A stretch of 52,694 nucleotides of DNA from Spongiactinospora gelatinilytica (GTDB taxonomy: Bacteria > Actinomycetota > Actinomycetes > Streptosporangiales > Streptosporangiaceae): positions 1-52,694 of the forward strand of contig NZ_POUA01000007.1 in the NCBI RefSeq assembly GCF_003236385.1, written 5' to 3'. Below, one piece after another: positions 3,126-22,310 of this stretch. Below the pieces are notes generated by a model. The model worked only from the letters and a program-made list of their open reading frames with translations, had not been told where the DNA came from and did not search any database. Numbering within the stretch: position 1 is the stretch's first letter; the number at the start of each line of letters is the position of its first letter. Made by a program: the position numbers and the translations under genes.

Positions 3126-3944
3126 ATGGCCAAGGAAAAGAATACCTCCCCAAAGGATCAATTCCGGCAAGAGCTGCGGAAGTGCCGAACCGCCAAGCAG
3201 TGGACGCATCGGGCACTGGCCAGCCGCCTCAACTGCGGCCACAGCCTCGTGGGGGCCATCGAGCGAGGTACCAGAAATCCGCAGCTCAGGTTCGCGGAGA
3301 AGTGCGATGAGGCATTTGGCCTGGATGAGCGCTTCGTCAAGCTTTGGAAGCGGATGAACAACGCTTTCAGCGGAGCTCAGTGGTACGCGCACTGGGCCGA
3401 CGAGATCGAACCCGAGGCGCGCACCCTTCGCTCCTGGGTTCCGCTGATGATCCCTGGGCTGCTCCAGACCGAGGAGTACGCCCGCGCGATGTTCACACTC
3501 GGCATTGTCGAGGAGGAAGAAGTCGAAGATCACGTACGTGCGAGGTTGGCCCGACAGACCATCCTGGGGCGCGAGAAGCCGCCTACGCTGTGGGTACTGG
3601 TTGACGAATGGGCACTCCAGCGCCAGGTCGGCCCCCCGGAAGTGATGGCGAGACAGCTCGACCACCTGCTAACGCTTTCAGGACGCTCCAGGGTGCACAT
3701 CCAAGTGCTGCCCGCCGACCCGGAGACCACCGCAGGGCTGGCCGGAGGCTTCATGATCGCGGAGATCGACGACCAGCCGACCACGGTTTACATAGATTCA
3801 GCGGCGCAGGCAGAAGTGACATCAGACCCTGAGCTGGTATCCATCATTCTGCGTAGATATGACAAACTTAGGGCGGGCGCTCTTCGCGTTAGCGAATCAC
3901 AACAAGTGATCAAGAGGTGGCGGGACTCGTGGACCAGCAAGTAG
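3126..3944 (+). CDS. XRE-family transcriptional regulator with DUF5753 (WhiJ/AbaA-OrfA type)
   Basis: The protein has 272 residues. An N-terminal helix-turn-helix (about residues 10-65) includes WTHRALASRLNCGHSLVGAI. The DUF5753 ligand/regulatory domain (about 90-265) is marked by WVPLMIPGLLQTEEYARA, the RLARQ helix, and the C-terminal VYIDSAAQAEV followed by the YDKLRAGAL helix. I chose the ATG at 3126 because GAGGAG (3114-3119) precedes it; the longer GTG frame from 3078 has no such site. It overlaps the DUF397 gene by 16 bases, so the two are translationally coupled. By family precedent it is a developmental repressor whose activity is modulated by the DUF397 partner and the divergent ATPase. 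Confidence 0.9.
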   Translation: MAKEKNTSPKDQFRQELRKCRTAKQWTHRALASRLNCGHSLVGAIERGTRNPQLRFAEKCDEAFGLDERFVKLWKRMNNAFSGAQWYAHWADEIEPEARTLRSWVPLMIPGLLQTEEYARAMFTLGIVEEEEVEDHVRARLARQTILGREKPPTLWVLVDEWALQRQVGPPEVMARQLDHLLTLSGRSRVHIQVLPADPETTAGLAGGFMIAEIDDQPTTVYIDSAAQAEVTSDPELVSIILRRYDKLRAGALRVSESQQVIKRWRDSWTSK

Positions 3945-4174
3945 GCCTTGATGGAGCGATATGGCGGAAAAGCACCCGCTCCTCCGACAACGGGGGTGAC
4001 TGTGTAGAGGTGGCCACCAACCTCCCCGGCCTCATCGCCCTACGCGACAGCAAAGACCCCACCGGCCCCACCCTCACCTGCACCCCAGCCGAGTGGACCG
4101 CGTTCCTCCACCGGGTCAACGACGGCGTGGGGCCTACGGCGATGCGGCCCAGAACTGAACCTTCAACAGAGTGA
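3929..4174 (+). CDS. DUF397 small protein, partner of the DUF5753 regulator
   Basis: The 81-residue protein matches DUF397, with WRKSTRSSDNGGDCVEVA (residues about 12-29), then LIALRDSKDP and the terminal WTAFL helix. The GTG at 3929 is preferred over GTG 3917 because the GAGGTGG at 3914-3920 then has normal spacing. The gene begins inside the end of the regulator gene. Proteins of this family sit beside WhiJ-like regulators and are thought to antagonise or co-act with them; that role is family knowledge, not visible here. Its 3' end overlaps by 41 bases the convergent immunity-like gene on the opposite strand. Confidence 0.88.
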   Translation: MDQQVGLDGAIWRKSTRSSDNGGDCVEVATNLPGLIALRDSKDPTGPTLTCTPAEWTAFLHRVNDGVGPTAMRPRTEPSTE

Positions 4175-20826: not shown

Positions 20827-21072
20827 TCAGTTCTGGTAAACGCGAACGCTGCAGTCCACAGGCTTCTTCGTTGCGACGCTTACCGGGCTGAGGTTGAGCA
20901 GTGTGACGATGATGTCACCAATGGCGCTGTTGCCGCACACGATCACGTTGCCGGACTGCTGGGCGGTATTGGTCTCGTCCGCCGGCCAAGGTGCGGCCGC
21001 CACCGCCGGTGCTGCGACCCCCGAGACGGCGAAAGCCGTCAGCATCCCGCCGATTGCGAGCTTCTTGAGCAT
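20827..21072 (-). CDS. Small secreted two-cysteine protein, array member 2
   Basis: This 81-residue paralogue has signal peptide MLKKLAIGG...GVAAPAVAA and a mature region with QQSGN, VCGNSAIGDI, TLLNLSPV and KPVDCSVRVYQN. Members 2 and 3 are the closest pair in the central segment (CGNSAIGD, LLNL). I use the ATG at 21072 because the context (GGAGAAT then ATG) and the MLKKL start equal those of the other copies; the frame continues upstream for 15 codons without a ribosome site. Secreted, probably with one disulfide; function unknown. The nearest functional analogy is chaplin-like surface proteins, which I regard as a hypothesis only. Confidence 0.8.
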   Translation of the reverse strand: MLKKLAIGGMLTAFAVSGVAAPAVAAAPWPADETNTAQQSGNVIVCGNSAIGDIIVTLLNLSPVSVATKKPVDCSVRVYQN

Positions 21073-21203: not shown

Positions 21204-21310
21204 TCAACCGGATTTTCGCTTTGCGGACTTCAACCACCTGATGCCCATATTCCAATAAATCGGACTTCACGCACGCAGCGTGCCTACCACTACAAAATTC
21301 GCAACCAACA

Positions 21311-21344
21311 AAAAAGGGGCACCGCAGCGTCAGCAGCGGTGCCC
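21311..21344 (-). terminator. Rho-independent terminator with T-tract (minus strand)
   Basis: GGGCACCGC (21317-21325) pairs with GCGGTGCCC (21336-21344). On the minus strand the stem is followed by a C and then TTTTTT. It ends transcription arriving from the omega-RNA-like element and from array member 3. Confidence 0.85.
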
Positions 21345-21374
21345 GCACAGCCGGAACATCTCCCGGAACGGTCC

Positions 21375-21540
21375 GTTGACTCCTCCGCATGGATGAATCC
21401 GGAGGATTCCAGCCCTCGCGAGCCGGATCTTCCCGCTTCACCGGCGACAGGCCCGGCGGCTGGTTCTCGCCGCCGGGCGGGGCCGCTACGCGGCGGGTTC
21501 GCTTTCCTCCCCCGGGCTGAAGCCCGGGGTCTCCAACGAG
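21375..21540 (-). ncRNA. Solo TnpB omega-RNA-like structured element (IS200/IS605-type right end)
   Basis: Reading the minus strand from 21540 there is GGAGACC, then an 8-bp hairpin CCCCGGGC/GCCCGGGG (21510-21529) followed by GGAGGAAAGCGAA. A small CCGC/GCGG hairpin (21483-21493) and a 9-bp hairpin GCCCGGCGG/CCGCCGGGC (21451-21478) follow. Then comes GGCTGGAATCCTCCG, whose CCTCCG (21382-21387) pairs with CGGAGG (21400-21405), ending AGTCAAC (21375-21381). This order of hairpins and the GGAAT-C...G-GAGG-x-GTCAAC end closely resembles the 3' omega RNA of actinobacterial IS605-type tnpB elements. No TnpB coding remains between here and 21939. The bases after GTCAAC would be the guide. This relies on recollection of the family, not on an alignment. 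Confidence 0.5.
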
Positions 21541-21939
21541 GGAGTCCCGATGAACGACCCTGAACGACCCCGGCAACTCGGCGACCCCGGCGACCCGGCG
21601 GTGGCCGTCCATGCGCCGAGGACGATCCGCCGGATTCGCCGGATCGGTTCACCGAATTGGTTCACCGGTCGCCGTGAGTTCCCTGGTCAGAGGTGGCATG
21701 CGAGGTATCGCACCCGATCGGGCAAATGCACCGAGGGCGGCCAACGGCCGTCCTCGCCCCTCGTCGCCGGCACGGCCGATGAATGGAGATCGACGGTGGT
21801 TCACGGGCCGTCGTCTCCCGCCGTACCTCGGACGACGGCCTCCAGGTAGAGACGGCGGGCTGGAGGCCCTCGTCACGAAGTCTCCCTAGCGGCCTCTGCT
21901 TCCGCCACCCATCAGGAAGGGGAACTCAGTGTCTGCGGC

Positions 21940-22197
21940 TCAGTTGCCGGTGTTCTGGGTGACCCGGATGCCGCAGTCGACCGGCTTGCGGTCGGCGAGA
22001 GTCACCGGCGTCAGGTTGAGCAGGTTGACGAACACGTCGCCGATGGCGCTGTTGCCACAGGTGATCGTGTTGCCGTTCTGCTGCGAGGCGTTGATCTCGC
22101 CCCCGGGCCACGGCGTGGCCGCGTGGGCCGGTGCGGCGAGCCCCATGCCGGCGAATGCGGCGATCATGGTCCCACCGAGTGCGAGCTTCTTGAGCAT
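21940..22197 (-). CDS. Small secreted two-cysteine protein, array member 3
   Basis: This 85-residue paralogue has a signal peptide from MLKKLALGG to the APAHA cleavage region. The mature chain contains PWPGGE, QQNGN, TCGNSAIGDV, NLLNLTPV and KPVDCGIRVTQN, with Cys 27 residues apart. The hydrophobic segment between the cysteines alternates polar and apolar residues, as in beta-forming surface proteins. Start and ribosome site (GGGAGAT) equal those of member 1. No partner gene is adjacent; its downstream flank holds the omega-RNA-like element, so insertion may have occurred between members 2 and 3. Confidence 0.8.
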   Translation of the reverse strand: MLKKLALGGTMIAAFAGMGLAAPAHAATPWPGGEINASQQNGNTITCGNSAIGDVFVNLLNLTPVTLADRKPVDCGIRVTQNTGN

Positions 22198-22310
22198 TTA
22201 AATCTCCCGATCGATCTCGGAACGAGAATTCAGCTCGTACCACTGACGGCCGAGCCGCTAGCCAGTAAAACGGCACGCGACACGAACGGCAAGCCAATCA
22301 CCACTCCGGC
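22198..22310 (-). promoter_or_regulatory. Upstream region of array member 3 (partly diverged)
   Basis: It keeps the ribosome-site block, GGCAAGCCAAT and an AGTAAAA (22264-22270) in the AGTAGAC place, 67 bases from the start, but lacks a clear GCCGTAAAGAA block. It may be expressed differently. Confidence 0.5.

Follow-up and report, generated by a model that had tools for sequence, protein, structure and literature searches.

The feature at positions 21549-21376 on the minus strand of the window, the 52,694-nucleotide stretch of Spongiactinospora gelatinilytica DNA analysed here, is, judged from its relatives, a 174-nt sequence that derives from a TnpB element of IS200/IS605 type and lacks tnpB. 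It is very probably a recent, decayed and non-autonomous (PATE/MITE-like) derivative of actinobacterial type, consisting of both ends and the stub of a solo element, from which tnpB and the omega-RNA core have been deleted. Taken alone, this copy is an ordinary remnant and most likely inert DNA. For the family to which it belongs, we lean towards a broader interpretation: a large group of actinobacterial IS605-type TnpB elements, with their solo omega-RNA and ends-only offspring, appear to be built for seamless insertion into translation junctions, where they would act as mobile intercistronic linkers that uncouple overlapping genes and break neither, and TnpB guides would be drawn systematically from gene starts and operon junctions, with the window copy as a decayed member. 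The anatomy, the loss of the omega core, the empty site in a sister genome and the arrangement of start codon, Shine-Dalgarno sequence and stop codon in relatives are all read from sequence comparison.

Anatomy of the window element

The features of the element and its immediate surroundings are as follows.

21550-21849, plus strand: 99-aa ORF from the ATG beside the left end
21550-21554, minus strand: target motif TTCAT, adjoining the left end; its plus-strand complement is ATGAA, with ATG at 21550-21552
21534-21549, minus strand: left-end tip CGGGACTCCCTCGTTG; its plus-strand reading, CAACGAGGGAGTCCCG, is an outward Shine-Dalgarno-like sequence ahead of the ATG
21501-21533, minus strand: left-end hairpin GAGACCCCGGGCTTCAGCCCGGGGGAGGAAAGC, with a perfect stem at 21529-21510
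21482-21500, minus strand: left-end-proximal GAACCCGCCGCGTAGCGGC, with 0-2 changes against the left ends of TnpB elements L029, L031 and L036
21452-21477, minus strand: hairpin CCCGGCGGCGAGAACCAGCCGCCGGG, similar to a stretch of the tnpB-less solos L159, L160, L164 and L166
21446-21452, minus strand: internal deletion site; the missing ~70 nt, including the omega core, are present in L160 and in 13/13 aligned TnpB-linked ends
21405-21445, minus strand: omega-RNA 3' half, GCCGGTGAAGCGGGAA plus hairpin GATCCGGCTCGCGAGGGCTGGAATC, placed by right-end alignment and covariance model
21376-21405, minus strand: right-end terminal hairpin and tip CCTCCGGATTCATCCATGCGGAGGAGTCAA, placed by right-end alignment and covariance model
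21358-21375, minus strand: host flank at the guide position, CGGACCGTTCCGGGAGAT; the 16-mer tested matches only itself in the own genome
21310-21344, minus strand: host intrinsic terminator, kept in two same-genus genomes (G001 and G002) without the element

The initial annotation had placed a complete, tnpB-less omega-RNA scaffold of an IS605-type element at 21375-21540, followed by a terminator. Its hairpins and ends are present as described (GAGACCCCGGGC...GGGGGAGGAAAGC at 21533-21501 and GGAATCCTCCG...CGGAGGAGTCAAC ending at 21375), as are the absence of tnpB, the retained ends, the omega-RNA 3' sequence and the terminator; the identity of the first hairpin, the completeness of the scaffold and the boundaries, now 21549-21376, required correction. 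The assignment of both hairpins to one omega RNA was dropped, because homologues of the hairpin at 21533-21501 sit 5' of tnpB or of a tnpB remnant in L029, L031, L036, L039 and L044; this hairpin is therefore the left end of the element. The omega 3' half and right end occupy only about 21450-21376.

Both hairpin ends are homologous to those of a tnpB-bearing element, and a fixed short motif lies 5' of the left end (TTCAT in the window, TCAT in 75/80 relatives). A search of 200 same-family genomes with the element gave matches in 77, the strongest falling on one of two separate parts; many weaker matches, possibly fortuitous, lie in the GC-rich middle. The 3' part of the window element matches a right end that in L041 follows a TnpB ending in DRDVNAAKNILAAGLAER, and the Pfam domains in the L081 TnpB are HTH_OrfB_IS605, OrfB_IS605 and Cas12f1-like_TNB. 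The minus-strand fold is stronger than that of shuffled sequences (z -2.99; 1/200 shuffles as good). One further, diverged relative in the own genome was detected by the RNA covariance model only. An exact pattern scan of the genome contig collection for the left-end hairpin returned 0 matches, and a search of the phage collection with the element also returned none; the plasmid collection yielded one 50-nt match, on a Streptomyces plasmid whose incomplete gene table lists no TnpB.

Across the whole window, Rfam gave 0 matches at gathering score. Overlaps with the families HgcC, SorX and CRISPR-DR9 were set aside as resemblances of a single hairpin. The HgcC resemblance involves the left-end hairpin with its 5' flank (21545-21510; 20 bits, cut-off 50, E 0.024), is the best below threshold and may point to a relationship between HgcC and IS605 ends. 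The plus-strand ORF at 21550 is probably not a real gene, because it has no Pfam match and shows several length differences against G001; no convincing gene lies behind the start site of the window copy. Short secreted proteins, which we take to be chaplin-like, are encoded on the minus strand on both sides of the element (about 20827-21072 and near 21930-22200). They are mutually similar by eye, and the one tested, of 81 aa, had no Pfam match.

Loss of the omega-RNA core

Right ends were aligned from 13 TnpB-linked elements, 13 further hits, the window and the second copy in the own genome. All 13 TnpB-linked rows, chosen from 40 TnpB-end rows because core and right end were found there, contain GCCTGTGGAG, then GT.AGA, then GTGAAGCAGGAA; the window keeps the last part only. 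The omega core (GCCTGTGGAG..GT.AGA, stems 1 and 2) is thus missing from the window, and the omega 3' half, terminal hairpin and tip are retained. Relative to L160, the window lacks ~70 nt between GCCGCCGGGCC and TGTCGCCGGTGAAG. Among the 13 further hits, L171 and L174 are also without the core, and L162 and L168 are degenerate at it. Because this conserved core is missing, the scaffold is not the full one initially proposed. By exact string the core is not universal, since TGTGGAG is absent within 420 nt in 6/40 TnpB-end rows (L067, L087, L109, L110, L111 and L178).

A covariance model was built from 11 TnpB-linked sequences, with changes on both sides in 9/34 pairs. Applied to 17 sources, it scored the top twelve rows at 74.1-99.6 bits (11 loci, L166 and L037 being one), followed by L024 (58.2), the window (55.4), L162/L033 (one locus, 48.3) and L047 (41); the window score is not the lowest, with scores close to it or lower in other tnpB-less copies. 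Within the own genome the window match reaches E 8.7e-13. In the covariance check proposed in the initial annotation, the model derived from TnpB-linked omega RNAs thus matched the feature, although every Rfam family stayed below gathering. Run unfiltered, the model aligns the window over all 127 positions, pairing alternative bases in place of the lost core; the 3' part alone scores 38.8 bits in the window vs 51.5 for the same part of L160. We read the window sequence, from this comparison, as an omega-RNA descendant with a damaged core. Its RNA may retain residual TnpB binding, as the full-length model alignment and the nearby scores of tnpB-less copies would allow. A weak third omega-like match in the own genome (L291 953-1047, contig 688; 22.9 bits) combines GGTGAAGCAGGAATCCCC with a GTCAA end. 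The omega-RNA stretch itself encodes the C-terminal tail of TnpB, of the VKQE..GIP type, in L029, L036, L057, L081 and L089.

Related elements form a size series that runs from TnpB elements through tnpB-less solos of 254-298 nt and the 174-nt window copy to ends-only elements of 52-54 nt. Eight of the 13 further hits have a left end and a length of 254-298 nt; L174 measures 215 nt and L171 95 nt, and no left end was found in L162, L165 or L167. Ends-only elements number 14 in the left-end collection described below (set 1). The solos L159, L160, L161, L163, L164, L166, L168 and L169 mostly have a clear omega core and mostly precede coding-signature starts; one genome (G161) holds three of them (L159, L160 and L164). 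The tnpB-less solos are possibly a family of guide-RNA-only elements.

Age of the insertion, TnpB partner and guide

Two same-genus genomes, G001 and G002, were compared with the window. The flanks of the element align with G001 as far as 21368 and again from 21579 onwards (86-92% identity), 5 bases separating them, so that the orthologous site is without the element; ~21 nt beyond the element also differ, and short repeats leave the exact junction ambiguous by about 21 nt. G002 contains the terminator and no element was seen there, its right flank hardly aligning. The empty G001 site agrees with the option, raised initially, of a recent remnant. The annotated terminator is present, with its stem starting 31 bases beyond GTCAA (21344-21310) and a T-tract following; because it is conserved in G001 and G002 without the element, it is host DNA older than the insertion.

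The own genome is an 8.05-Mb draft assembly (957 contigs; 95.92% completeness) from which an intact TnpB could be missing. Profile searches of this draft gave 0 matches for PF01385 and one for PF07282, a 31-residue stretch of contig 355 that spans positions 27-60 of the 60-position profile. An intact TnpB was not detected, in line with the earlier statement that no TnpB coding is left in the spacer. The contig 355 match belongs to a second copy with deletions, which keeps a left end, a tail of tnpB and the omega core (74.1 bits). This copy (L027 1496-1721; contig 355, about 3796-4021) has a damaged right end and lies directly ahead of a 285-aa gene (HTH_31, DUF5753), with GGAGG before the gene's ATG.

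The initial annotation had also raised the possibility of a domesticated solo omega RNA, loaded in trans by TnpB and directed by the flank at 21375-21358. The covariance match, the terminator 31 nt downstream, which would give a clean 3' end, and the existence in several genomes of tnpB-less solos with intact core all speak for it. Yet the core is lost in the window, the intact matching TnpB looked for in the draft genome was not found, the element was not seen in G001 or G002, and no sigma-70-like promoter was found in 21250-21950. The guide fares no better: the 16-mer GGACCGTTCCGGGAGA has one exact match in the own genome, itself, and ten further places there carry 2 mismatches, hardly more than the 7 obtained with a backwards control; viral contigs gave a raw count of four exact 16-mer matches. 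We therefore regard domestication as highly improbable. Smaller still, close to negligible, is the chance that the feature is an unrelated REP-type palindromic repeat or a fortuitous pair of GC-rich hairpins. The region is GC-rich, such hairpins are frequent and weak hits are many. However, the many identical copies expected of a simple repeat did not appear, the own genome holding a single copy by DNA similarity (next match E 0.068); the order of left end, solo stub and right end is that of mobile elements, the model matches over full length, and the sister genome lacks the element. A recent, decayed derivative of a TnpB element remains the preferred reading.

Left ends at start codons

Left ends were collected (set 1) by querying 341 family genomes with the left end, at most two candidates being scored per genome; 61 gave matches, and every place listed was taken except one resembling a copy of another (G005 contig 150). 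Of 97 loci with a hit, 80 were retained after removal of 6 duplicates, 2 right-end hits, 8 lacking the core pattern, and L116; among the 80, L097 and L126 represent a single insertion shared by two species. The triplet beside the left-end tip is CAT in 79/80 and CAA in 1/80 (exactly TCAT in 75, CCAT in 4 and TCAA in 1); one of the four CCAT is a wrong pick, and the rows L085 and L101, in which a wrong CAT was picked, were left as counted. A Shine-Dalgarno-like word stands in the outward-read tip 3-11 nt before the start codon in 67/80 left ends; as these were found by homology, the word is partly given by the search, and the gene start is not. A coding-signature ORF, defined by >=60 codons, GC3 >=0.8 and GC3 0.15 above GC2, starts at the tip in 59/80, comprising 55/67 with the word and 4/13 without (Fisher p 0.0005). 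Tips with AAGGAG at 5-6 nt spacing recur ahead of unrelated genes. A target complementary to the Shine-Dalgarno sequence itself was considered and dropped, given that CAT is invariant whereas CTCC varies. Left ends of the GGAGACCCCGG[CT]CTTCAGGCC type (L105, L106, L110 and L111) have neither a Shine-Dalgarno-like tip nor a coding-signature start.

As a control, 610 TCAT sites flanking the set-2 loci described below were scored: 218 begin a coding-signature ORF (internal Met included), 89 have the word and 35 have both. Both features occur in 55/80 of set 1 vs 35/610 of the control (Fisher p 8e-38), and the coding signature alone in 59/80 vs 218/610 (p 1e-10); these p-values serve as a guide only, the rows being not fully independent and the control drawn from other genomes.

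A second collection (set 2) came from a TnpB-alignment scan, as the best 80 of 565 confirmed stretches: four cyanobacterial, one from a Gemmatimonadetes MAG and the others actinobacterial by title. A first hairpin finder, which placed 34/80 left ends, was replaced by an anchor, and its control counts were kept. Among the 76 non-cyanobacterial loci, 63 yielded the automatic anchor and 52 had TCAT or TCAC at the tip; the 24/76 loci without a usable call are partly the script's fault, and wrong TCAC picks in at least L200 and L201 were left as counted. Those 52 tips, two of which repeat set-1 loci (L206 and L241, both positive), include 44 with a Shine-Dalgarno-like word, 33 with a coding signature and 30 with both. 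Split by start codon, both features occur in 27/41 ATG rows and 3/11 GTG rows (L179, L183 and L189, with Shine-Dalgarno-like tips and a GTG start), some GTG rows being wrong picks, so that a TCAC/GTG subgroup is a lead only. Inspected by eye, the cyanobacterial left ends of set 2 had no such Shine-Dalgarno tip.

Twenty host proteins, picked at even steps from the 55 + 30 positives and hence only from positive-called rows, were checked against Pfam. In all 20 a domain scored above cut-off and aligned from one of the first 11 positions of its model. With domain starts between residues 2 and 153 of the proteins, the check shows that no N-terminal domain is truncated; it does not fix each ATG as the exact start. 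In L237 a lipoprotein-like signal appears only at residue 26.

Placement at start codons could also be a by-product of TCAT targeting and the removal of harmful insertions, not something built into the ends, and we give this account slightly less than an even chance. Ends of IS605 type would require TCAT as the target, and tips lacking a Shine-Dalgarno-like word are rarer at coding starts, as the 4/13 against 55/67 indicates. On this account, however, neutral intergenic TCAT sites would be expected to be common among the hits, yet 59/80 left ends sit at coding-signature starts, and the recurrence of AAGGAG tips before unrelated genes argues in the same direction. Targeting and selection need not exclude each other.

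Right-end stops and element-free junctions

A script recognised the right end in 29/80 set-1 elements via GTCA, a few of which may be chance. In 11/29 (ten independent insertions) the TGA of the right tip is the exact end of an upstream coding-signature ORF that is open over all codons examined; the other two frames gave 0 and 0. No such upstream gene was seen for the remaining 18.

Element-free relatives show the expected junctions at the three loci compared, and after insertion both start and stop are kept at each. For purQ-purL, purL was found in 40/41 genomes, and 22 of 30 loci were examined at the junction: G063 has a 52-nt element and the other 21 have none. Of the element-free junctions, L261, L264, L271, L272 and L273 read ..GC|ATGAC and L263, L265 and L267 read GTGA; in others the gap is longer, and the start was missed in L275-L280. 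For the kinase gene next to the L077 TnpB element, 18/39 genomes gave a match and 11 junctions were examined; 10/10 relatives without the element read ..CC|ATGAG, and the carrier reads ..CCC TTGA..[element]..GGGAGATTCG ATGAG. The L115 regulator gene was matched in 16/16 genomes, and the best loci of 15 comprise two carriers (L311 and L314) and 13 without the element, nine with ATGACG and four with GTGACG. The empty-site junctions at the L077 and L115 loci are clean with respect to insertion without target duplication.

Proposed insertion mechanism

The right end of IS608 is cleaved at TCAA. In the scheme that we propose, a Y1 transposase acting in trans would join the element 3' of TCAT; since this motif reads ATGA on the other strand, the left end would be placed directly against the start codon of an oppositely oriented gene. 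The left-end tip would hand this gene a Shine-Dalgarno sequence, from which translation could presumably begin, and the right-end tip TCAA (TTGA in gene sense) would return the upstream gene's stop in the register of the lost ATGA. With TCAT on the left and TCAA on the right, insertion into NN-ATGA would by itself yield NN-TTGA...ATGA, and the Shine-Dalgarno tip would be an addition. Deletion of the core would presumably have cost the window RNA its binding to TnpB. Insertion by a Y1 transposase 3' of a short motif and without target duplication is described for IS200/IS605 elements in the available text of PMC8612924 and PMC7290912.

Relation to known systems and significance

Within the actinobacteria, TnpB elements and solos (L029, L041, L160, L164 and others) share the left end, right end and TCAT with the window element and differ from it in keeping tnpB and/or the omega core. 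ISDra2, as portrayed in the available text of Karvelis et al. 2021 (PMC8612924), resembles the window family in its palindromic ends, in a motif 5' of the left end without target duplication and in a guide RNA formed by the tnpB 3' end and right end with flanking DNA as guide, whereas its target is TTGAT and that of the window family TCAT. The window copy further differs from ISDra2 in lacking tnpB and the omega core, and the family in having tips with an outward Shine-Dalgarno sequence and a stop. The Halanaerobium PATE-like IS605 'ends-only' sequence (PMC7290912) is likewise short, with palindromic ends only, and such elements are described there as often moved by a trans-acting transposase; in contrast to the present family, the available text of that paper mentions no omega-RNA parts and no start-codon placement ('start codon', 0 occurrences).

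TldR proteins share a TnpB origin with the window element and need a TnpB-like protein and a kept guide, neither of which was seen for the window element. They are presented as RNA-guided transcription factors in the available text of PMC13418256. TnpB/IS605 elements at start codons with an outward Shine-Dalgarno sequence did not appear among the matches listed from the open-licence literature, and a prior description is possible.

The family result would explain how TnpB transposons spread inside dense, GC-rich operons, for example before purL, apparently without breakage. It suggests that the TnpB nuclease motif in these bacteria is TCAT, perhaps TCAC before GTG starts. The family would also offer a ready set of natural RBS-hairpin insertions for measuring translational coupling.
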